IMG/VR virus record: IMGVR_UViG_3300029267_001888
Coordinates: 1 to 37,185 of that record
DNA from: a virus
Strand: one strand, 5' to 3'
DNA: 37,185 nt
In this document: positions 3,408 to 37,185 of the stretch, piece by piece
How positions within the stretch are numbered: position 1 is the stretch's first letter
Layout of the letters: the number at the start of each line of letters is the position of its first letter
Notes under the pieces: generated by a model
Database searches by the model: none
Seen by the model: the letters and a program-made list of their open reading frames with translations, nothing else
What the model was told of the DNA's origin: nothing
Translations under genes and position numbers: made by a program

Positions 3408-4286
3408 CTATATCGTTCTCTTTAGAGACCATTTAATTATTGGATCTCCTCTGAATTCACCCAAATCCCTATTTAAAAGCTCAGGAATCGACTTATAGTC
3501 TATTAGACCAGGTAGGGTACTGCGAACGTAACGAAAGCCCTTAGAACAGGCGCTTCTGTTGCTTGAGAGCGATTTTAATTCTTCTTCTAATGCCTTCTCT
3601 TCTTCACACAAAATCTTCTTTTGTTGCTTAATTTCATATATTCTTTCCGCTATTTTAAGCCACTCTATTCCTTGTTCTATATAATCATCTTCAGTTAATG
3701 GAGGTTCTATTAAGCTTTCTACACAATCCCAGAAGTCTTCAAGCTTCTTTTCCATCCTACTAATATATTCATCATCTCTCTTGACTTTGACTATTACCCC
3801 CTCTCCTTTATGAAAAGAAAAATAGTCAACATAAGGAAGCTCTGTTACCATGATTTGCATTTGTACTTGAGGATAATACTTATCTGGTACCCTTCCTCTT
3901 TTAGATAGAGTATGATCTTCTTCGTTACAATTTTTTATCTCCACTGACCTATCTTCTGTGATGTTGAGTCCATCTAAAGAAGCTAATAAGTGGGGATATT
4001 TTTTATTTTTAACGCAAACTGGATCAACTAAATCTCTTATCATTTCTTGATAAACAAGTCTAGCTGGTTCTTCCATGCTTTTGCCGTATCTTGTAGCAGC
4101 ATTATTACAGCTCAGATCAGCTAAACCAAGCTTCTCTTGCCATAAAAGATAAGGAGTTTTAATCCTACCATCTGGAAGCTTCCATTTAGCAGTGCCCATT
4201 ATAATTGGTGCATCCGAGGCTCCTACATGATTTTTTCTTATCTCTAGCCATTCCTTAGTGCCCTGTTCTATTTTTAGTTTTTCCAT
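3408..4286 (-). CDS. YqaJ/lambda-exo family 5'-3' exonuclease
   Basis: 292 residues. Resects one strand of linear dsDNA so that the RecT-type partner encoded just upstream can anneal the exposed ssDNA. Motifs fit the YqaJ viral recombinase fold: GASD near residue 24, RYGKSMEEPAR near 66-76, the acidic LLASLDG near 102-108 and the PD-(D/E)XK E-x-K pair in SVEIKNC near 115-121, then YYPQVQMQIMV. The C-terminus is charged and coiled (KQQKKILCEEEKALEEEL). The start abuts the RecT stop, so they are translationally coupled. It lies in the leftward operon fed by the promoter at 5420-5449. Confidence 0.88.
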   Translation of the reverse strand: MEKLKIEQGTKEWLEIRKNHVGASDAPIIMGTAKWKLPDGRIKTPYLLWQEKLGLADLSCNNAATRYGKSMEEPARLVYQEMIRDLVDPVCVKNKKYPHLLASLDGLNITEDRSVEIKNCNEEDHTLSKRGRVPDKYYPQVQMQIMVTELPYVDYFSFHKGEGVIVKVKRDDEYISRMEKKLEDFWDCVESLIEPPLTEDDYIEQGIEWLKIAERIYEIKQQKKILCEEEKALEEELKSLSSNRSACSKGFRYVRSTLPGLIDYKSIPELLNRDLGEFRGDPIIKWSLKRTI

Positions 4287-11710: not shown

Positions 11711-11846
11711 GATAGTTTGGAATTGCATATTAATTATAACTATATTTGCAGTATTTAAAAGCAATGAGGCCTTAAAAAGTACCGCTATCTTATGTTTTTC
11801 AAAAATTAAAGATTTAATTGTTTATTTATTAAACCAGTTGGATTGA
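11697..11846 (+). CDS. Small membrane protein before the large terminase
   Basis: 49 residues with a hydrophobic N-terminal segment (LIKIVWNCILIITIFAVF) and a second hydrophobic C-terminal part (LIVYLLN). AAGGA lies just upstream, it overlaps the XRE gene end, and its TGA overlaps the terminase ATG (ATGA-type coupling at 11844-11848). Possibly a membrane effector; not recognised. Confidence 0.5.
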   Translation: MKLIKIVWNCILIITIFAVFKSNEALKSTAILCFSKIKDLIVYLLNQLD

Positions 11847-13105
11847 TGGAATTAACAAACTTAAGTGATAAGCAGATAAAATCTTATCGGGAATCGGATG
11901 CTCGTATTAATATCTTTGAAGGTCCTGTACGAGCCGGTAAGTCATTTATAGGGCTTCTTAGATGGTTAGACTTCTGTAAAAATGGGCCAAAAGGTCCTTT
12001 AATTATTTGTGGAAGAACAGATAAGACTATTAAAAGAAATATCATCTCTCCTTTGCAAGATATGGTTGGATCGGCCGTGCAGTATTCAATAGGAAAGGGA
12101 GAGGTTAATTTATATAATAGAACTATGTATGTGGTAGGGGCTAACGACGATCGGGCAGAAGCGAAGATACGTGGCTCTGAGTTTGCAGGAGCCTTAATTG
12201 ACGAGGCTTCTCTGCTTCCTGAGAACTTCTTTAAGATGCTTTTATCCAGACTATCTATTCCTGATTCTAAACTATTTTGTTCTACTAATCCGGATTCGCC
12301 TTATCACTGGCTTAAAACCGATTTTATAGATAGGCAACATGAATTAGATCTAAAGGTATTCTCTTACAATATACGGGATAATCCAACTTTAAATGAAAAA
12401 TATATATCCGATTTATCTGCTGAATATCAGGGACTCTGGTACAAGAGATATATTTCTGGTGAGTGGGTACAGGCTGATGGGGCAGTATATGACTTTTTTG
12501 ATGAAGAAACTCATATTATTCAGATGCCATATTCTTCAGCCAATTATTATATTGTTGGAATAGATTATGGAACTACAAATCCCTGCGCTTTTACTTTAAT
12601 TGGATATAACCCTAGTAGCTATCCAAATATGTGGCTTGAAAAAGAATACTACTTCGACTCTAAAAAAGAGTTAAGACAAAAGTCAGACTATGATTATGCG
12701 ATAGATATGATAGAGTTCATTAGAGGATACAATGTTAAGAAGATTTATATAGACCCCTCAGCTGCTTCATTTAAGCAAGAGTTACGTAGAAATGGACTAT
12801 ATAACGTTGTAGATGCTGCGAATGACGTAGTTCCAGGGATACGATTTGTATCTCAGTTGCTTTCTAATGGAACATTAAAGATATGCTCTAATTGCACGGA
12901 AACAATAAAGGAATTTAGTAACTATTTGTGGGATTCTAAAGCTTCGGATAGGGGAGAAGATAAGCCGCTCAAGAAATTCGATCATGCGATGGATAGCTTG
13001 CGTTATAGTCTCTTTACGCATTTCTTTCATAAAAATCTAAGGCCTGAATTTACAGAAGATGATGCGGACAAATTAGAACAGATGTATTCGAAGCGTTTCA
13101 ATTGA
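11846..13105 (+). CDS. terL: Terminase large subunit (PBSX/Terminase_3 type)
   Basis: 419 residues; ATPase and nuclease of the DNA packaging motor. Walker A GPVRAGKS at residues 26-33, Walker B GALIDEAS near 113-120, coupling region CSTNPDSPYHWLK, then the RNase H-like nuclease with IVGIDYGTTNPCAF, IYIDPSA and the late acidic FDHAMDSLRYSL. ATG 11846 is chosen because it overlaps the upstream TGA; an in-frame TTG sits one codon earlier. A length of about 420 is normal for this family. The last bases contain the promoter for the following lipoprotein. Confidence 0.95.
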   Translation: MELTNLSDKQIKSYRESDARINIFEGPVRAGKSFIGLLRWLDFCKNGPKGPLIICGRTDKTIKRNIISPLQDMVGSAVQYSIGKGEVNLYNRTMYVVGANDDRAEAKIRGSEFAGALIDEASLLPENFFKMLLSRLSIPDSKLFCSTNPDSPYHWLKTDFIDRQHELDLKVFSYNIRDNPTLNEKYISDLSAEYQGLWYKRYISGEWVQADGAVYDFFDEETHIIQMPYSSANYYIVGIDYGTTNPCAFTLIGYNPSSYPNMWLEKEYYFDSKKELRQKSDYDYAIDMIEFIRGYNVKKIYIDPSAASFKQELRRNGLYNVVDAANDVVPGIRFVSQLLSNGTLKICSNCTETIKEFSNYLWDSKASDRGEDKPLKKFDHAMDSLRYSLFTHFFHKNLRPEFTEDDADKLEQMYSKRFN

Positions 13106-13444: not shown

Positions 13445-15511
13445 ATGGCAAAAAGCATAGATAATGCTATTGTTCGTGAATACGACGAATATTACAATGA
13501 CGCTTACTTAGCATGGAATCCCTTTTACCCACTTGCAGACAGAGACTTAAGGTTTTACTTGGGGGAGCAATGGGACGAGCAAGAAAGGCAAAAGCTTTTT
13601 GAAGAAGGCAGAAATGCTTATTCATTTAATTTAATACGAAAGAACATAAATCTTCTCACGGGATATCAACGAAAACACAGGCTAAGCTCTATAGTCTCTC
13701 CTACAGAAAGCTCTGATCAAGAGGCCGCAGACCAACTGTCTCAATTACTTCTTTATGCTTTAAATCATGGAGAAGGGTACAAGTTCATTTCTGAATCCTT
13801 CGGTGGTGCATTAAAGACAGGTTTTAATTTACTTAACATCTGGATGGATTATAGAGATGATCCTATAAATGGAGATATTAGATTTGGTAGAGAGCCATAT
13901 AACGGGTTTATTGTTGATCCATACTTCACTCAACTAGACTTCTCTGACTGTTCTTACGTTATAAAGAGAAAATATTTATCTCCCGCTCAAGCGGCATCCT
14001 TATTACCAGGTCAGGAAAAGGATGTTTATTCATTAGCAACTCAGGGCTGGTCCAGAGACGATAAATTTACCTGGTTACCATATCAGACACAACCTAACGG
14101 TCAACCTTTTATTGCCTATAATGAGTTTTATAAGCAGGGATGGGAGGATGTAGACGTAATCGTAGACAATGAAACCGGTGAATTCACCGAATGGGAGGGC
14201 GACAAGGACGGTCTTAATCTTTTCTTAAAGAACTATCCCCAATTAGAGGTTATAAAACGCCCTAAAAAGTATGTTGATTGTCATATCATATTAAATGATC
14301 ACTATGTAAGGACCGAAAGAAACCAATATGGCTTAAATGAATACCCATTTGTGCCTTTTGTAGGCATTTTTGAACCAGAATCTGAGCACTGGGGACTCAA
14401 AGTACAGTCCCTTACCAGATGCCAGATAGATCCGCAGAGAGAAGCAAATAGAAGACGCTCCCAGATGATAGATATTCTGGATTCAAGCATTAATTCTGGA
14501 TGGATGGCCAAAAAATCATCTGTTATTAATCCAAGATCCCTATTTCAGACATCGCAAGGGAAGGTTATTTGGAAGGAAGAGGATACCCAGCCGGGTGATA
14601 TAGAAAAGATACAACCTTCTCAGATACCGCAAGGAATGTTTGAGCTCCAAAAGCAGTTTGACCAGGACATCATGACTATAGCAGGCGTTAACGATGCCGC
14701 ATTTGGAATGACAGAGAATGCTCAAGAGTCGGGTATTATGATGATGCTTAGACAGGGCGCCTCGATCATAAATCTACAAGATCTCTTCGATAATCTTAGA
14801 TATGCGCAAAAATTGATCTCTAAAAAAGCTTTGAAGATGATCCAGACATGGAAGCCCGAGAAGGTTGAAAGGATTATCAATCAAAAACCATCACAGCAAT
14901 TCTATAACAGCGACTTTATTAAATATGACATTTCCATACAGGAAGGAGTTTTAACGGATGATCAGAGGCAGATATATTTTAGACAGTTGGTTGAACTGCA
15001 GCAATTAGGAGTTCCAGTAACAGGTGAGATGCTTGCAGATGCAGCACCACTACAAGGCAAGACTGAATATAACAAACAGATTAAAGAGACAGAGAAAAAG
15101 CAAGCTGAGCAGATGCAGCAACAGACACAGACACAGCAGCAGATACTGAACTCTCAGCTAGAATTAAATAAATCAAATTCAATCAAAAATATAGCAGCTG
15201 CTAAAGAAGACTTCACTAGAGCTTCCGCTAACATGGGACTCTTAGACGAACGCACCTCGGAGTCGATACAAAATCGTTCTCAAGCTTCGTTAGATAGAGC
15301 TAAAACAATGAAAGAATTGGAAGAGATGGACGATAACAGAATATTGAGATTAATGCAAATCGTTCAAACGATGGACGCTATGAATAAGGTAAAAGAGGAT
15401 CAGAATAAAATAGAGGATGTGTCTATTGCAGCGGGATCTGAAAAGATGAACGCAGCCTTTCCTCAACAACAAGCTACAATGGAGCCAGCAGCAGCTCCAA
15501 GTGGAATTTAA
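13445..15511 (+). CDS. Portal protein (P22-like)
   Basis: 688 residues, close to the P22 portal length. The N-terminal part has the family pattern LAWNPFYPLADRDLRFYLG, EGRNAYSFNLIRKNINLLTGYQRKHR and QLLLYAL; the middle has REPYNGFIVDPYF and the late region IAGVNDAAFGM with GIMMMLRQGA. The C-terminal 170 residues are helical and Gln-rich (EQMQQQTQTQQQ), the barrel/crown region. Forms the dodecameric ring at the head vertex through which DNA enters. Its long leader carries a GAACCAC element and CGTGAGG ribosome site. Confidence 0.88.
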   Translation: MAKSIDNAIVREYDEYYNDAYLAWNPFYPLADRDLRFYLGEQWDEQERQKLFEEGRNAYSFNLIRKNINLLTGYQRKHRLSSIVSPTESSDQEAADQLSQLLLYALNHGEGYKFISESFGGALKTGFNLLNIWMDYRDDPINGDIRFGREPYNGFIVDPYFTQLDFSDCSYVIKRKYLSPAQAASLLPGQEKDVYSLATQGWSRDDKFTWLPYQTQPNGQPFIAYNEFYKQGWEDVDVIVDNETGEFTEWEGDKDGLNLFLKNYPQLEVIKRPKKYVDCHIILNDHYVRTERNQYGLNEYPFVPFVGIFEPESEHWGLKVQSLTRCQIDPQREANRRRSQMIDILDSSINSGWMAKKSSVINPRSLFQTSQGKVIWKEEDTQPGDIEKIQPSQIPQGMFELQKQFDQDIMTIAGVNDAAFGMTENAQESGIMMMLRQGASIINLQDLFDNLRYAQKLISKKALKMIQTWKPEKVERIINQKPSQQFYNSDFIKYDISIQEGVLTDDQRQIYFRQLVELQQLGVPVTGEMLADAAPLQGKTEYNKQIKETEKKQAEQMQQQTQTQQQILNSQLELNKSNSIKNIAAAKEDFTRASANMGLLDERTSESIQNRSQASLDRAKTMKELEEMDDNRILRLMQIVQTMDAMNKVKEDQNKIEDVSIAAGSEKMNAAFPQQQATMEPAAAPSGI

Positions 15512-16901: not shown

Positions 16902-19237
16902 ATGACTATGACCACAACAGCAGTGCTACCTCCAGCAGTTCGGGAATACTATGATCGCTTATTGTTGATAACAGCGTATCCAACGCTTATTCATACAAAA
17001 TTCGCTTAACCTGAACATTGTAGAATGTTAAAATGGGCGAAGTAAAATGATTTCGAATTCGGGGAAACTCCGCAAAGGACAATCCCGAGCCAAGCCGCAA
17101 AGGAAGGTGTAACGACTATGTTTAGTAATAAACTAGAATTTAAAGGAGCAGTAATTGGAATGTTATTAGGCGATGCCTGTATTCCCAAAGTACAACGTGG
17201 ACTAAACGCATCTTTGAGAATTGGGCATAGCATAAAGCAGAAAGATTATCTAATGCATAAAAAGAAAATCTTATCAATGCTTACAGAATGTAGGGTGTAT
17301 GAGCCAAACATTATTGTAAAAGATAAAGAGTATCAAACTATAACATTAGATACAAGAACACATCCATTTTATACTAAGCTTCGAGAGCATTTTTACCATG
17401 ATGGAAGAAAGACTATAGATGAGCATGTCTTAAAGTGTCTTACTCCTCATGGACTGGCTTTATGGTACCAAGATGATGGATGTTTAACAAATCATGAAGA
17501 TTTTTTAACACCATTTCTTTGTACGCATGGATTTAACAAAGTTGAAGTTGAAATGTTAGCAAGAATGCTACAGAAAAAATTTGGCCTTCAATGGAAATTA
17601 AGAAAAGATAAGCAATATTATGCTCTTAGACTTAGAAGAATGGATAGACAGCCTTTCTTTGATTTAATAGCTCCATATATTCATGAAAGCATGAAGTATA
17701 AAATGAGGTCAGATGGTAAAGAATCCATTTTTAAAGACCATATTATACTCAAGTGTAAACAATGTAATAATGATTTCGAAGTGCCTTATAAGTCTCGAAA
17801 TCGCAAATATTGTTCATGTCTATGTTATCATAATTCTAGAAGTGAAAAACGAGAGAAATCACAGAGTTAGACTCTGAACATATAGTCTCCTCTGTATAGC
17901 AATATGCAGTACCTATAGAAATATAGAGTAATAAGATCTAGCAGAGACGTATTCTTCCCGAAAAAAATGGAGATACCATTGTATTTAGAAGATACTCAAA
18001 ACTTGACACAGTACCTATTCCTTTAGTGGATGGACGTACTCCTCCTGGAGCACCTCTTTCAGCTACTGATATCAAGGCTAGAGTAACTTTTTATGGTAAT
18101 TTCGTAACAATAACAAACCAAGTTCAGCTAACAGTTGAGGACAGGGTTAACATACGGGCCCTGTATAAATTTCCATTAATTGACATGGACACCTACGTTA
18201 CACAGGAAGCTGCGTAATATGGCAACATGGGCGAAGGTTATTTAAAGACCACGCTAAACGACTAAACATGGAAACCCGAAAGGGATGCGATAGTCTGAAC
18301 TCTTCTGTAAAGGAAGAGAGAGAAATCCGAAGAGTTTTCTCCGCCATAGAAATATGGTCAGTAGGCATAGCTAAGCCGAAAGTAACAGATTGCTTAAACG
18401 AGAGTGCAAGATTGCTTTCTCAGAATTTAGCTCAAACTATGGACGAAGTTACAAGAGATGTACTAGCGAGTACAAGTTCAGTTCTACAATGTTCTAACGG
18501 CATTAATGGTAATACACCAACAGAACTGACAAAGGCTGATATTGACGCAGCAGTTAAGACATTACTTGGAAATGATGCTGAGATGATCAGTGAGGTTGTA
18601 ACTGGCGTTAATGCGTTTGCGACAAGCCCGGTTCGACCGGCATTCTGGGGATTCTTGGATACAGATCTTTTAGATGATCTAGAGGCTGTAGCTAACTTTG
18701 TCAACTCTAGTAACTATGCTTCACAGCAGACAGTGCTAGATGCGGAATGGGGTTCTACAGGGAACGTAAGATGGCTTTATACTAGCGTTGGAAGCGTTTC
18801 TAGCGCAACACCAGCAGTATACAACAACATTATTGTTGGTAAAGAAGCTTATGCTGTAGTTCATCTTAAGTCTGAAACTGGTGATTTCTATGTAGAGCCA
18901 CTAGGATCAGGAGGATCAGCAGATCCGCTACATCAAAGAGGATCAGTGGGTAAAATGTCAGCTCACTTTAAACTAAACCTGATTGACTTGGAAGCCTACG
19001 GCGAAAGCTATGGTGACAGGGGCGAACCCAATTGGGACGCTGAACGACTAAGTGGTTTAGCTGCGTAAAGCAGAAGCGATAGTCTGGACTTGCTTGTAAA
19101 GAGCAAGAGGAGAGATCGAAGAATCTTTCCCGCCTCAATTGGGGTCATAAAAGTAACAGAAATAGTGGCAACATCCATTTGTAGCAAGAATACTAAATGA
19201 TGCATTTATGCTTAATTTAATGGCAACACATAGCTAA
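16902..19237 (+). CDS. Major capsid protein (N4-gp56 family), split by three group I introns
   Basis: Exons 16902-17006, 17942-18147, 18393-18951 and 19166-19237 join into 942 bases, 313 residues. The fused protein shows the N4-gp56 capsid pattern in order: LPPAVREYYDRLLL, TKFA|QRRILPEKNGDTIVFRRY, TVPIPLVDGRTPPG, FYGNFVTITNQVQLTVEDRV|LNESARLL, AQTMDEVTRDVLAS, GKEAYAVV, LHQRGSVG|WQHPFVARILNDAFM. Bars mark the junctions, all in strongly conserved places. Without splicing, translation stops at once after residue 35, because intron 1 begins with TAA in frame. Each 5' exon end is U, pairs with an internal guide, and each intron ends in G. AGGAG precedes ATG 16902. Independent ORFs at 18026-18217 and 18268-19068 are exon plus intron read-through, not genes. 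Joins were deduced by reading, not by RNA data. Confidence 0.9.
17007..17941 (+). ncRNA. Group I intron 1 in the major capsid gene
   Basis: 935 bases. P1: exon TTCGCT (17001-17006) pairs with the internal guide GGCGAA (17036-17041), ending in the required U-G pair. The conserved core is clear: GGGGAAACTCC, AATCCCGAGCCAAGCC (about 17061-17096), then ACGACTAT (17112-17119) whose GACTAT pairs with ATAGTC (17882-17887) as P7. The last intron base is G. The homing endonuclease occupies the region between the two P7 strands (P8 side). The first three bases are an in-frame TAA. Confidence 0.9.
17118..17870 (+). CDS. LAGLIDADG homing endonuclease (intron-encoded)
   Basis: 250 residues. Two LAGLIDADG-type helices: IGMLLGDACI near residues 13-22 and LALWYQDDGCL near 112-122, each ending in the metal-binding acid. 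This spacing fits a two-motif monomer such as the LAGLIDADG_2 group. The C-terminus carries a four-cysteine finger (CKQCNNDFEV..., then YCSCLCY), probably for DNA recognition. It should cut intronless copies of the capsid gene near the exon 1/2 junction to spread intron 1. The ATG lies within the intron's P7 strand, so translation and RNA folding compete. AAGGAAGG lies 10-15 bases upstream. Confidence 0.88.
   Translation: MFSNKLEFKGAVIGMLLGDACIPKVQRGLNASLRIGHSIKQKDYLMHKKKILSMLTECRVYEPNIIVKDKEYQTITLDTRTHPFYTKLREHFYHDGRKTIDEHVLKCLTPHGLALWYQDDGCLTNHEDFLTPFLCTHGFNKVEVEMLARMLQKKFGLQWKLRKDKQYYALRLRRMDRQPFFDLIAPYIHESMKYKMRSDGKESIFKDHIILKCKQCNNDFEVPYKSRNRKYCSCLCYHNSRSEKREKSQS
18148..18392 (+). ncRNA. 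Group I intron 2 in the major capsid gene
   Basis: 245 bases, no endonuclease. P1: exon ACAGGGT (18141-18147) pairs with GCCCTGT (18158-18164), with the terminal U-G wobble. Core: AACGACTA with GACTA at 18260-18264 pairing TAGTC at 18291-18295 (P7), followed by TGAAC. It splits a codon after its second base (GT|C, Val), and the last intron base is G. Joining gives the family sequence EDRV-LNE; no other G-ended acceptor nearby keeps the frame. Confidence 0.87.
18952..19165 (+). ncRNA. Group I intron 3 in the major capsid gene
   Basis: 214 bases, no endonuclease. P1: exon AGTGGGT (18945-18951) pairs with GCTCACT (18961-18967). Immediately upstream, TGTCA (18956-18960) pairs with exon 4 TGGCA (19166-19170) as P10, which fixes the 3' site. 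Core: GAACGACTA with GACTA at 19046-19050 and TAGTC at 19080-19084 (P7). The last base is G. Core sequence is close to intron 2, suggesting common origin. Confidence 0.88.
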
Positions 19238-28696: not shown

Positions 28697-29218
28697 TTAA
28701 AAATAAGTTCCAAAATTAACTGAAAAGGAATGGCTTTTCAAAGCCTCTTTTCTTATCTTTCGTGGATAATCAACTTTATTATTATCACACATTAACTTAA
28801 TAAATCTTAAAAAATTACTCTTTAATTCTACAAAACAATCCCTATTACCAACTTTACATAAAACACCTAATGTCAGACAGGGATTAATTTGAATAGGAGA
28901 AAAATAGTTATTAGAAATGTCTATTCTATATCTTATTCCTGCACCTAGATAAGTATTATTGTTCTTAGGAAAATAAAGATAATTTAATGCAAATGAAACC
29001 GGATAAAATCTATGCAATTCTAAATGTTTATAAGGTGTTTTAAATAATAAACTACAATCAAAACAGTTTTTATTTGAGATTTTTCTATGTCCAAATCCTA
29101 TAGCTGATAATTTACTGTTTAATATTTCAATATTAATATATGAAAGATCTTTTAGGGATTCTGCTTTTAAAATACATGTAGTCGATAAGATCAATATTAA
29201 ACAATATTTAAAATTCAT
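28697..29218 (-). CDS. Secreted beta-rich protein, outer-membrane-like
   Basis: 173 residues. Signal peptide MNFKYCLILILSTTCILKAES with probable cleavage after KAES or nearby. The mature part alternates aromatic/beta strands (AIGFGHRK, FDCSLLFKTP, NNTYLGAGIRYRIDI, SFSVNFGTYF) and ends in an aromatic residue, as outer-membrane barrel proteins do. Cysteines pair loosely (NCFDC). The pattern reminds me of short secreted proteins of environmental Chlamydiota, not verified. Start overlaps the HNH stop (ATGA). Envelope-altering moron is the likely class. Confidence 0.6.
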   Translation of the reverse strand: MNFKYCLILILSTTCILKAESLKDLSYINIEILNSKLSAIGFGHRKISNKNCFDCSLLFKTPYKHLELHRFYPVSFALNYLYFPKNNNTYLGAGIRYRIDISNNYFSPIQINPCLTLGVLCKVGNRDCFVELKSNFLRFIKLMCDNNKVDYPRKIRKEALKSHSFSVNFGTYF

Positions 29219-29463
29219 GTAGCCTCTATTCCAAAGTTAAATGTTAATTGATATGGGCTTGTTTCATAAAGATATTGCATTTTATATATATTGCAAATTC
29301 TTTTATGGGTCATAGCATGACATGAAGAACAAAGAACTTTAAAATTAGAAAGCTCATTGTTATCTCTATTGTGATCGATATGATGAACTAGCAAATCGTG
29401 ATTTTGACCGCATTCTTCACATTTATTATGACATTGTCTATATATTTTAAGGTTTTTATGCAT
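29215..29463 (-). CDS. HNH endonuclease
   Basis: 82 residues. Two zinc-binding Cys pairs (CEEC, CSSC) frame the HNH core LLVHHIDHNRDNNELSNFKVLCSSCHAMTH: the VHHIDHNR segment, then N, then H. This is the small stand-alone HNH type found in phages, acting as a homing or packaging nicking enzyme. It overlaps the recombinase stop by eight bases, so the two are coupled. Confidence 0.85.
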   Translation of the reverse strand: MHKNLKIYRQCHNKCEECGQNHDLLVHHIDHNRDNNELSNFKVLCSSCHAMTHKRICNIYKMQYLYETSPYQLTFNFGIEAT

Positions 29464-30037
29464 TCTTCTTACCTTTTAAGTAATTATATATCGGAGTAGT
29501 CGATTTTACGTTTATAAGGCGTGATATAGCTAATATCGGCATACCCTCTACCATATACCTGTCTATAGCCTCTTTTTGCTCAGGATTCAAGATAAGCGGC
29601 CTTCCTAGCGATCCCCCTCTTTTCTTTATGGCTGCTAGAGCTTCTTTTGTTCTTTCTGATATAATATTACGTTCAAATTCTGCAAAAGACGCTATTATTT
29701 GAAATTGCATTTTTCCAACTGCTGTAGATGTATCTATTTTTTCAGTTAAAGAAACAAAGTTTATTTCATTGTTGATAAAATAATCCATCATTCTTATTAA
29801 ATATTCTAATGATCTTCCGAATCTATCTAATTTGCAAACCACAAAAGTATCTCCTTTTTTTAGATAATTCAATGCTTTGTCTAATTCTGGTCGTGTCTTT
29901 ATTCTAGTTGAAATTTGTTCGGCATAGATATTACGTTCGTCAATTCCATATTTTATAAGAGAGTCAATTTGTTGATCCAAAACTTGAGTATCTGTTGAAA
30001 TCCTAGCATATCCTATTATCATTGATTTTAAACCCAT
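29456..30037 (-). CDS. Small serine recombinase (resolvase/invertase)
   Basis: 193 residues by the longest start; the usual family start MIIGYARIST would begin at 30022. Catalytic Ser in YARISTDTQ, then LKKGDTFVVCKLDRFGRS (the R-x-x-R-x-x-R area), VGKMQFQIIASFAEFERNIISERTKEALA and the C-terminal HTH (AISRLINVKSTTPIYNYL). This is the Tn3 resolvase/DNA invertase size, without the long domain of phage integrases. It could flip or resolve phage DNA; target sites are unknown, with an inverted repeat at its own promoter as a candidate. Confidence 0.88.
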   Translation of the reverse strand: MGLKSMIIGYARISTDTQVLDQQIDSLIKYGIDERNIYAEQISTRIKTRPELDKALNYLKKGDTFVVCKLDRFGRSLEYLIRMMDYFINNEINFVSLTEKIDTSTAVGKMQFQIIASFAEFERNIISERTKEALAAIKKRGGSLGRPLILNPEQKEAIDRYMVEGMPILAISRLINVKSTTPIYNYLKGKKNA

Positions 30038-34724: not shown

Positions 34725-37185
34725 GGCTACAGATACAATGCAATCACTGGAGAACTAGATTATTATGATTCCGGACAAGCTGGTAATGATGTAACACAAA
34801 TCGATGCTGATACCGGATCCGCTTTACCAGTTTCTGGGATAATAAATTTACTTGGATCGAATAGCGTTGAGACTACAGCATCCGGCAATACAGTCACAGT
34901 AAAGAATTTAGCCGACATCACAAAGTATGTAGTGGATCCTGTGGCCGGAGAAACTGGCTACACTACAATTCAATCTGCTATGGATGCTGCTAATGCTGCT
35001 GGAATAGCAGCTGCTGTATTTGTTAGAGCTGGTACTTACACAGAAGACTTAACTTTCTACGATGGAATTGATGTTTGGGCAGGTATAGGAGTAGCAGATA
35101 CTCAGACATGTAAAATTGTAGGTAAACATACACCACCACTTTCAGGAACTTTAACTGTTAGAAATATATTTTTAGAAAGCGCTACACATATTTTTGATTC
35201 AAATGCTGCAGGAACAACTGAAATAATATTAATTGACTGCGCTTTGGGAGTAACAAATGGTTATACATTTAACTTACCGAATTGGAGTGGTGTTTTAGTT
35301 GGTTTTGATATAGGAGAAGTTACTTCTACTAATGATGGATGGGTAAATAATACCGGCGGTGCTTTTATCTTTATGACAGACGTCACAATAGGAGCTGGAG
35401 CTGGAAATCCAATGATAACATCTGGAGGAATTGAATTATATAATGCGGCAGTTCAATGTCCTGTAAATTTTGGAAATGGCACATCTGGAACCGCAAATGG
35501 AGGAACTTGGTTTAAGAACCCTATTTCATATACTGGAAATGCACAAGTAGATATTCAAAATAGTTATGTAGATGGAGGAGCAAGCTCGGCTATCACATTT
35601 AATTCCTCTAGTGATATAAAAATTTCAAGTTCAGTTCTAAAATCATCTATTAATCCTTGTGTAGCTGGTAGCGGAGCAGGAAATATTACATTTAGCGGAG
35701 TTGATTTTGAAGATAATGCTAATATAGCTCCAACGCTAACTATAGATGGTGGCAAAACTGTTGCTGGAAGTATTAGATTAATAGATAGAACACCTAATGC
35801 AGTAGCTGCCTATGCAACTGGAGGAGAATTATATGAAGTAGGTCCTTTAACTGATGGTCAATTAGTTATAGGAGATACCGGAGCTTTTCCTAAAGCTGCC
35901 AATTTAACATCAACCGGTGGGACTATATCAATAACTAATGGTTCTGGAACTATAAATCTAGAAGCAGGTGCTGGTGTTTCAACAACTTTTACTACTGATT
36001 CTGGTAATGCTACCCCTGCAGCAAATGTTTTAAATATCTTTGGTGGGAATAGCGCAACAACATCGGGTGCTGGCAATACAGTTACTGTAAAAAATCTAGC
36101 TGATATTACTAAATACGTAGTAGATCCAGTCGCTGGTGAGACAGGCTATCAAACTATCCAATCGGCCCTTGATGCAGCTAATGCTGCTGGAGTTGATGCG
36201 GAAATATATGTAAAACCAGGAACTTATACTGAAAATCTAACTTTATATGGTGGGCAAGTAATAAGAGGCGCTACTTTAGAAACAATGATTAGCGGAAATC
36301 ATACACCTCCAGCTTCAGGTTTTTGTACATTAAAAGATTTATATTTAACGGCTGCTGCAGGAGATATATTATCCTCAGCTGCTGCTGGAACTACAATTAT
36401 ATTAATCGAAAATTGTTATAACACAGTAACCAACGGATATATTTGTGATTTACCTAATTGGGCTGGTGGTACAATTGCTATAGTTAATTGCACAGATGCT
36501 TCAACAAATAATGGTGTTATAAACTGTACAGGTGGAGCAAATGCTTTAATAACAAATTCATTTGCTGGCAGAGGAACGGCAAATACATTAACGTTCTCAA
36601 ATGGAAATTTGGATATTATTAGTTCTAGAATGGGATGTCCTGTATCTGTAGCTGGAACTGGAACAACAATAATAAATGAAGGCTCTTCTTTATTAGGAAC
36701 TTTAACTACAGGGGGATCTGTAACTACTTCTATAACTCAGACTAAAATTTCTACAGGAGCAACTCAAGCAATAACCCACGGTTCGACAGGAACTACAACA
36801 CTTGGAGATGTTTCTATTAATTCATCTAATAATCCATGTATTGGAGGCGCAGGAGCTGGTAATTTAGTTATAGGATCAATCACTTATCTAAATGATACAG
36901 ATATTGCAGGCACAATAACTAAATCCTTCACAACTAGATTTGAAACAGGTGAATTGAAATTAGATGATTCAGATAACGGAATACTTGTAGCTACAAATGG
37001 AGTAGTTTCTACAGGTGGAGGAACTTTAGATCAAGAGCAAATATACTATGTCGGCAAACATGGCAATGATGCTAATGATGGCCTTTCTATAGGAAATGCA
37101 GTTCTTACTTTTGGACAAGCATTAACATTAGCAACAGCTGCAACTCCTGGCGCTGCAAATAGATTTGCAATAGTTTGTTTTGATG
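34722..37185 (+). CDS. Giant tail fibre/tailspike, N-terminal part (continues at 3-1367)
   Basis: Open frame from ATC 34722 to the window end, continuing through the circular join to 1367 (about 1,228 residues in total). The first residues IGYRYNAITGELDYYDSGQ match the usual phage fibre N-terminus M-GYRYN-ITG-LD, with isoleucine codon in place of ATG. Two modules of about 395 residues start with NTVTVKNLADITKYVVDPVAG (near residues 55 and 451), each with GTYTE-LT beta-helix turns and LPNW, like pectate-lyase-type helices; a third begins near 772. Likely the receptor-binding trimer. The next fibre gene follows directly after its stop. Confidence 0.8.
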   Translation, partial: MGYRYNAITGELDYYDSGQAGNDVTQIDADTGSALPVSGIINLLGSNSVETTASGNTVTVKNLADITKYVVDPVAGETGYTTIQSAMDAANAAGIAAAVFVRAGTYTEDLTFYDGIDVWAGIGVADTQTCKIVGKHTPPLSGTLTVRNIFLESATHIFDSNAAGTTEIILIDCALGVTNGYTFNLPNWSGVLVGFDIGEVTSTNDGWVNNTGGAFIFMTDVTIGAGAGNPMITSGGIELYNAAVQCPVNFGNGTSGTANGGTWFKNPISYTGNAQVDIQNSYVDGGASSAITFNSSSDIKISSSVLKSSINPCVAGSGAGNITFSGVDFEDNANIAPTLTIDGGKTVAGSIRLIDRTPNAVAAYATGGELYEVGPLTDGQLVIGDTGAFPKAANLTSTGGTISITNGSGTINLEAGAGVSTTFTTDSGNATPAANVLNIFGGNSATTSGAGNTVTVKNLADITKYVVDPVAGETGYQTIQSALDAANAAGVDAEIYVKPGTYTENLTLYGGQVIRGATLETMISGNHTPPASGFCTLKDLYLTAAAGDILSSAAAGTTIILIENCYNTVTNGYICDLPNWAGGTIAIVNCTDASTNNGVINCTGGANALITNSFAGRGTANTLTFSNGNLDIISSRMGCPVSVAGTGTTIINEGSSLLGTLTTGGSVTTSITQTKISTGATQAITHGSTGTTTLGDVSINSSNNPCIGGAGAGNLVIGSITYLNDTDIAGTITKSFTTRFETGELKLDDSDNGILVATNGVVSTGGGTLDQEQIYYVGKHGNDANDGLSIGNAVLTFGQALTLATAATPGAANRFAIVCFD
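37042..37185. repeat. Terminal direct repeat, right copy
   Basis: Exact duplicate of bases 1-144 (see left copy), marking the point where the contig closes on itself within the fibre gene. Confidence 0.95.

Follow-up and report, generated by a model that had tools for sequence, protein, structure and literature searches.

Three group I introns in the capsid gene of a small phage, and a ribozyme family that interrupts the capsid gene across related phages

The major capsid gene of a small tailed, podovirus-like phage very probably contains three self-splicing group I introns, which are removed from the mRNA to restore an N4-gp56 protein of 313 residues and are tolerated as passengers. Two of the three belong to a family of small ribozymes, mostly without open reading frames (ORFs), whose ORF-less members would have invaded the capsid gene of this clade repeatedly, at about 50 positions, with a guide matched to each new site.

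Results

The genome and the interrupted gene

The window, that is, the whole stretch of 37,185 nucleotides analysed here, has an exact 144-nt direct repeat at its two ends (1-144 and 37042-37185), and we therefore take it to be a complete genome of about 37.04 kb. Its gene order is terminase, P22-like portal, capsid; the capsid gene spans 16902-19237 and comprises four exons and three introns.

11843-13105, plus strand, terminase large subunit, uninterrupted (Pfam PF03237, 4.3e-14)
13445-15511, plus strand, P22-like portal protein, uninterrupted (Pfam PF16510, 5.7e-72), the bait for the unbiased count below
16902-17006, plus strand, capsid exon 1, residues 1-35, 97% amino-acid identity to the one-piece gene of contig L003
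17007-17941, plus strand, group I intron 1, 935 nt, containing an endonuclease ORF
17118-17870, plus strand, LAGLIDADG homing endonuclease, I-SceI-like, 250 aa, inside intron 1
17942-18147, plus strand, capsid exon 2, residues 36-103 and the first 2 bases of codon 104
18148-18392, plus strand, group I intron 2, 245 nt, without ORF
18393-18951, plus strand, capsid exon 3, ending at residue 290
18952-19165, plus strand, group I intron 3, 214 nt, without ORF
19166-19237, plus strand, capsid exon 4, residues 291-313 and stop

Elsewhere in the window, a serine recombinase of the DNA-invertase type (29456-30037, minus strand; PHROG 125, 4.3e-57) adjoins a small HNH ORF (29215-29463, minus strand). 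The recombinase may switch tail genes; no inverted repeats of at least 40 nt were found in the window. Diverged direct repeats (72-73%) lie in the late tail-tip or fibre region (855-977 with 35787-35909, and 34884-35065 with 36072-36253), and an ORF at 7072-7887 matches Holliday junction resolvase families (PHROG 190, 3.6e-22). The only cellular matches are to two metagenome bins, labelled Thermotoga and Lokiarchaeota, which are probably stray phage contigs.

The joined exons and their one-piece relatives

Joined, the exons give 942 nt that encode 313 residues and a stop. The product scores 207 bits (3.2e-61) against the NCBIfam model of the N4-gp56 capsid, TIGR04387, for which the cut-off is 60, confirming the protein family and length given in an initial annotation made from the sequence alone. 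It also matches PHROG 1357, major head protein (8.5e-42), and Pfam PF25209 (1.1e-9), and a profile of the one-piece capsid relatives finds the solved capsids 9e99 and 9d7z (1.3e-5 and 7.1e-5). An AlphaFold prediction for a one-piece relative with 18 sequences was useless (pLDDT 32).

Among viral contigs, relatives with up to 96% identity over all 313 residues carry an undivided gene, which reveals the empty sites, and the DNA of the one-piece relatives aligns without gaps over all three exon junctions. Spliced alignment with a profile built without the window returns the same three introns, with all six borders agreeing to the base. The exon borders, guide pairings and protein length had all been read correctly in the initial annotation. 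Differences between the exons and L003 fall mostly at third codon positions (27, 11 and 152 at positions 1, 2 and 3), and we conclude from this that the four exons are selected as one protein.

The stops and frame changes that interrupt the reading frame would fit a broken relic, in which insertions had killed the capsid gene and another coat was in use. We regard this as very improbable: the exons are under strong amino-acid constraint, the introns retain their pairing, and no second capsid match was found in the window, which is a complete genome. The reading that we prefer is that the primary transcript would fold into three ribozymes, whose self-excision with guanosine would join the exons. 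Guanosine-driven self-excision is well established for group I introns; that it takes place here in the cell is what the sequence leads us to expect.

Guide pairing at the splice sites

In all three introns a P1 guide helix of 6-7 bp, with a U.G pair at the splice site, can be formed with the upstream exon (TTCGCT/GGCGAA in intron 1, ACAGGGT/GCCCTGT in intron 2 and AGTGGGT/GCTCACT in intron 3). Each intron is preceded by T and ends in the terminal G that had been noted initially. The P10 pairing with the downstream exon, also proposed then for intron 3, is 5 bp long there and 2 bp in introns 1 and 2.

Across the family, 83% of introns have a P1 score of at least 14 when set against their own exon, compared with 9% when the exon is taken from another site, the border having equal freedom to shift for own and foreign exons. 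P10, which was unused in mapping, reaches at least 3 bp in 58% of cases with the own exon compared with 8% after swapping. The exon ends in GGT in 58 of 136 cases; the exon-end U and the terminal G were imposed during family mapping and are not independent evidence in the family. By predicted pairing, the guide of each intron is thus a far better fit to its own exon than to the exons of other sites.

The ribozyme cores of introns 2 and 3

Introns 2 and 3 are members of a single ribozyme family, about 200-250 nt in size. We aligned 20 members end to end, introns 2 and 3 included, with borders set by one-piece relatives, on a structure written from intron 3 that comprises P3, P4, P5, P6, P7 (a pseudoknot), P8, P9, P9.1 and P9.2. 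In these 20 members, 94.7% of the cells in the core are paired as against 73.4% after shuffling, and 37 of the 51 core pairs show compensatory change on both sides. The covariation score is 0.580, compared with 0.196 for shuffled alignments (0 of 500 shuffles reaching the observed value) and 0.05-0.12 for slid structures.

A covariance model made from the same 20 members, R1, gives 182 bits for intron 2 and 212 bits for intron 3, both of which are among its 20 rows; searched over the window, it matches only these two training rows. The initial annotation had named the general Rfam group I model, RF00028, as a check, and by itself it is weak here: with a cut-off of 50, intron 1 scores 25.8 bits, intron 2 scores 20.7 bits and intron 3 gives no match. 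A score under the cut-off of so general a model is no defining failure for a group I intron; scores this far below it do mean that the stock Rfam model would miss all three introns. Rfam at its gathering cut-off returns only a tRNA over the window. The P7 pairs described initially are present in all three introns, as GACTAT/ATAGTC in intron 1 and as the P7 pseudoknot in introns 2 and 3. Four lines of evidence support three group I introns in the capsid gene, as first annotated: unoccupied sites in relatives, the pairing of the guides, covariation within the core and the selection seen in the exons.

Some small-family introns carry an ORF in the P6 loop (L087 4043-4840, L108, L149 and L154), and these P6-loop ORFs are often unlike endonucleases.

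Intron 1 and its endonuclease

Intron 1 also occurs in contigs L083, L085, L086, L087 and L112, at the same site after residue 35. Besides P1 and P7 it has a P3 helix, TGATTTC/GAAATCA, which covaries, reading TGATTAC/GTAATCA in L083 and L112 (rows read by eye). The P7 and P9 hairpins are present in the alignment fold of the six copies (window plus five relatives).

The product of its ORF matches Pfam PF03161 (LAGLIDADG_2) with 143 bits (9.3e-42; cut-off 25) and chains of I-SceI (1.4e-12). The ORF start overlaps the 5′ strand of P7 and its stop overlaps the 3′ strand of P3 and P8. The ORF is open in six relatives, with 32, 16 and 88 differences at the three codon positions, a third-position bias that shows the endonuclease to be under selection.

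Exon identity near site 35 is raised by 12.5 points in intron-bearing pairs and by 1.0 in intron-less pairs, the pairs not being independent. A rise of this kind fits the prediction of homing with co-conversion. Presence and absence at one site together with flank co-conversion, the mark of a mobile intron, are both found at site 35 (again in pairs that are not independent), and intron 1 is accordingly a mobile homing intron that most likely spreads via its own I-SceI-like endonuclease.

Capsid genes as targets of the small family

A DNA pattern of the small-family core, blind to gene identity, matches 87 stretches in viral contigs, and in most of them it falls within a gene of the N4-gp56 capsid family. 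Searches by capsid similarity give one-piece genes first and hence yield no frequency, so we used the portal gene as bait, fetching loci with the portal genes of the window and of one distant relative. Among these portal-selected loci, 21 of the 51 distinct complete capsid genes are interrupted. The loci (1.25 Mb) contain 48 R1 matches, 42 of them within the mapped capsid gene; two more touch capsid fragments at contig ends, which brings the matches in or at the capsid gene to 44, and the other four are one portal intron seen on four contigs. The initial annotation called three introns in one capsid gene rare for a phage, which holds for published phages; in this clade capsid introns are common, as the portal-selected count shows.

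Over all distinct capsid loci, a set enriched for introns through the way it was collected, 94 of 259 genes are interrupted. Of the interrupted genes, 51 have one intron, 24 have two, 12 have three, six have four and one has five. Once repeats are removed, 155 introns remain. They fall into 59 site/phase classes, and P1 is strong in 52 of these classes (about 50 sites); adjacent classes from distant relatives may represent a single alignment-shifted site, and weak boundaries remain among them. In contig L112 four introns follow residues 19, 35, 66 and 87, and the endonuclease intron of the window is one of them.

Contig L108 was at first read as having nine introns, from nine R1 matches. These matches are in fact separate halves, 5′ or 3′, and belong to about five introns that contain P6-loop ORFs. 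Positions 4-198 and 1027-1203 of L108 are two diverged copies of one capsid exon (residues about 121-185); either the exon was duplicated, or the assembly is chimeric where introns recur. Because of the split matches and the duplicated exon, we exclude L108 as a record of intron number.

Repeated introns can fool assemblers, and L108 may be an example; the interrupted gene of the window could in principle likewise be an artefact, with unrelated sequences fused inside it during metagenome assembly. We hold this to be hardly credible, since intron 1 lies at site 35 in independent samples (L083, L085, L086, L087 and L112) and the borders are exact to the base, obeying P1 and the terminal G and, most clearly at intron 3, P10.

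Among the 80 capsids nearest to that of the window, six are interrupted and 74 are without intron. This bears on the suggestion, made in the initial annotation, that splicing could time head assembly, the capsid protein being delayed until all three splicing events are complete. The introns do lie in a late structural gene, as most of the family does, and introns have been proposed as molecular on-switches by authors working on Bastillevirinae (PMC11878797). We nevertheless think a regulatory device improbable. Close relatives do without introns, the 74 intron-free genes including some whose protein is 96% identical, and intron positions and counts vary among phages with no pattern; the capsid intron of mycobacteriophage LittleE is efficiently spliced late in infection (PMC3706429). 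The introns may benefit the phage, and are in our reading mobile passengers, tolerated because they splice out.

Outside the N4-gp56 capsid, small-family introns are again found in virion genes, with few exceptions. The hosts are the P22-type coat gene (L113, L119, L151 and MW202674), an SU10-like capsid (L140, a weak match), the portal gene (L111, L165 and L329) and the tape measure gene (L120, L124, L138 and L167). In L329 the intron (3752-3969; also in L330-L332) lies near the start of the portal gene and represents one lineage. A single small-family intron is hosted by nrdD (L103), and those of L088 and L163 are unassigned to a target gene.

Movement between sites

A single site can hold introns of different lineages, and kin introns can lie at different sites, a distribution that indicates repeated invasion. 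In a tree of 130 cores, from which the guide columns were excluded, the site label changes 59 times, where the minimum possible is 24 and shuffled labels give a mean of 71 (lowest 66). The labels are therefore not random, and part of the pattern reflects descent or homing at the same site. As read from this tree, the introns appear partly tied to their sites and yet frequently moved.

The intron after residue 15 in L160 nests in a clade of introns after residue 19 (SH-aLRT 99) and has a different guide, and the occupants of site 15 stem from about six places on the tree. Since most inner branches are weakly supported, single moves other than that of L160 need care. The guide found in L024 and L034, GCCCACG, has one mismatch to its own exon, CGTGAGT, whereas the GCCCAC within it could form a complete pairing with GTGGGT at site 290; this combination is what a recent arrival would show.

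Discussion

How small introns without ORFs might travel

Judging from these patterns, the ORF-less introns would move either by reverse splicing or through an endonuclease acting in trans. A plausible account, to which we give somewhat less than an even chance, is that they spread as DNA through endonucleases in trans, free-standing or from neighbouring introns, with no reverse splicing. Homing in which ORF-less introns collaborate with free-standing endonucleases has been described (PMC3984707), some members of the family bear P6-loop ORFs, and the window has an HNH gene (29215-29463) and no known reverse transcriptase; identity near shared sites is also slightly higher among intron-bearing genes. 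Against this, about 50 sites would each need an endonuclease and most introns are without any, the account alone leaves the fit of guide to site unexplained, and the rise in identity near small-intron sites is modest.

It is possible, though less likely than not, that the ORF-less introns move instead as RNA, by reverse splicing into the capsid mRNA at sites that fit the guide and copying back to DNA; that the capsid mRNA is the most abundant late transcript, which belongs to this reading, is equally tentative. Guides that suit their sites at so many positions, together with the clustering of introns in highly expressed structural genes, make us lean to reverse splicing; the modest identity rise around some sites and the lack of a known reverse transcriptase in the window count for spread at the DNA level. 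A 2014 review described the reverse-splicing route as lacking direct evidence (PMC3984707). If the RNA-level reading is true, this would be the first tractable case of such spread of group I introns. In either event, the question of how ORF-less introns reach new sites becomes testable here, given some 50 positions, close relatives in which they are unoccupied, and guides that fit, and the capsid gene of this clade is a natural laboratory for it. Capsid genes of the clade are also prone to be missed or annotated as fragments.

Comparison with known systems

Phage group I introns are already known, among them cases of several per gene and cases in capsid genes. In the literature covered, beyond which lie most subscription papers, we found no earlier description of a capsid hotspot on this scale, and the one account of a multi-intron phage capsid gene concerns a crAss-like phage. 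In that phage, of the Zeta group, the capsid gene is in five fragments and, like that of the window, has multiple introns (PMC7886860). Those are endonuclease-rich introns of large gut phages, unlike the small phage described here, and the account does not include many sites in one small clade, ORF-less introns or re-matching of guides (PMC7886860). LittleE likewise has a group I intron in its capsid gene, with splicing proven by RT-PCR where ours is predicted from sequence; it differs in being a single intron in one phage of another family, with an HNH endonuclease (PMC3706429). A coat-gene intron of the small family itself occurs in MW202674, Podoviridae sp. ctn9Y15 (L369 3692-5207; R1 149 bits), where it sits unmarked in the record, flanked by a pair of CDS that each bear the annotation P22 coat protein; that coat is P22-type and that of the window N4-gp56.

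Three group I introns in one virion gene are similarly described, as cited in PMC11878797, for orf142 of Staphylococcus phage Twort, which is reported to be a tail tube gene with exon skipping, in another phage group. Genes with two to three group I introns are also found in Bastillevirinae (PMC11878797) and Jug phages (PMC12363816). Those of the Jug phages are about 206 nt long on average, and metatranscriptomes show some of their splicing (PMC12363816). In these phages, with genomes of 137-400 kb, the introns lie mainly in DNA polymerase, terminase and nucleotide-metabolism genes (PMC11878797, PMC12363816). Phage introns in general are said to favour genes of DNA and nucleotide metabolism, a preference called mysterious (PMC12350094, PMC11878797); the small family shows the opposite, with almost every member in a virion gene and above all in the capsid gene.

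A further likeness is to the group I introns of nuclear ribosomal DNA, which occupy over 90 sites in one highly expressed locus and whose spread between sites is attributed to reverse splicing (PMC1299323). The hosts there are eukaryotic rRNA genes rather than a phage protein gene (PMC1299323), and, should the small introns indeed spread as RNA, the capsid gene of this clade would be the counterpart of ribosomal DNA for the nuclear introns.
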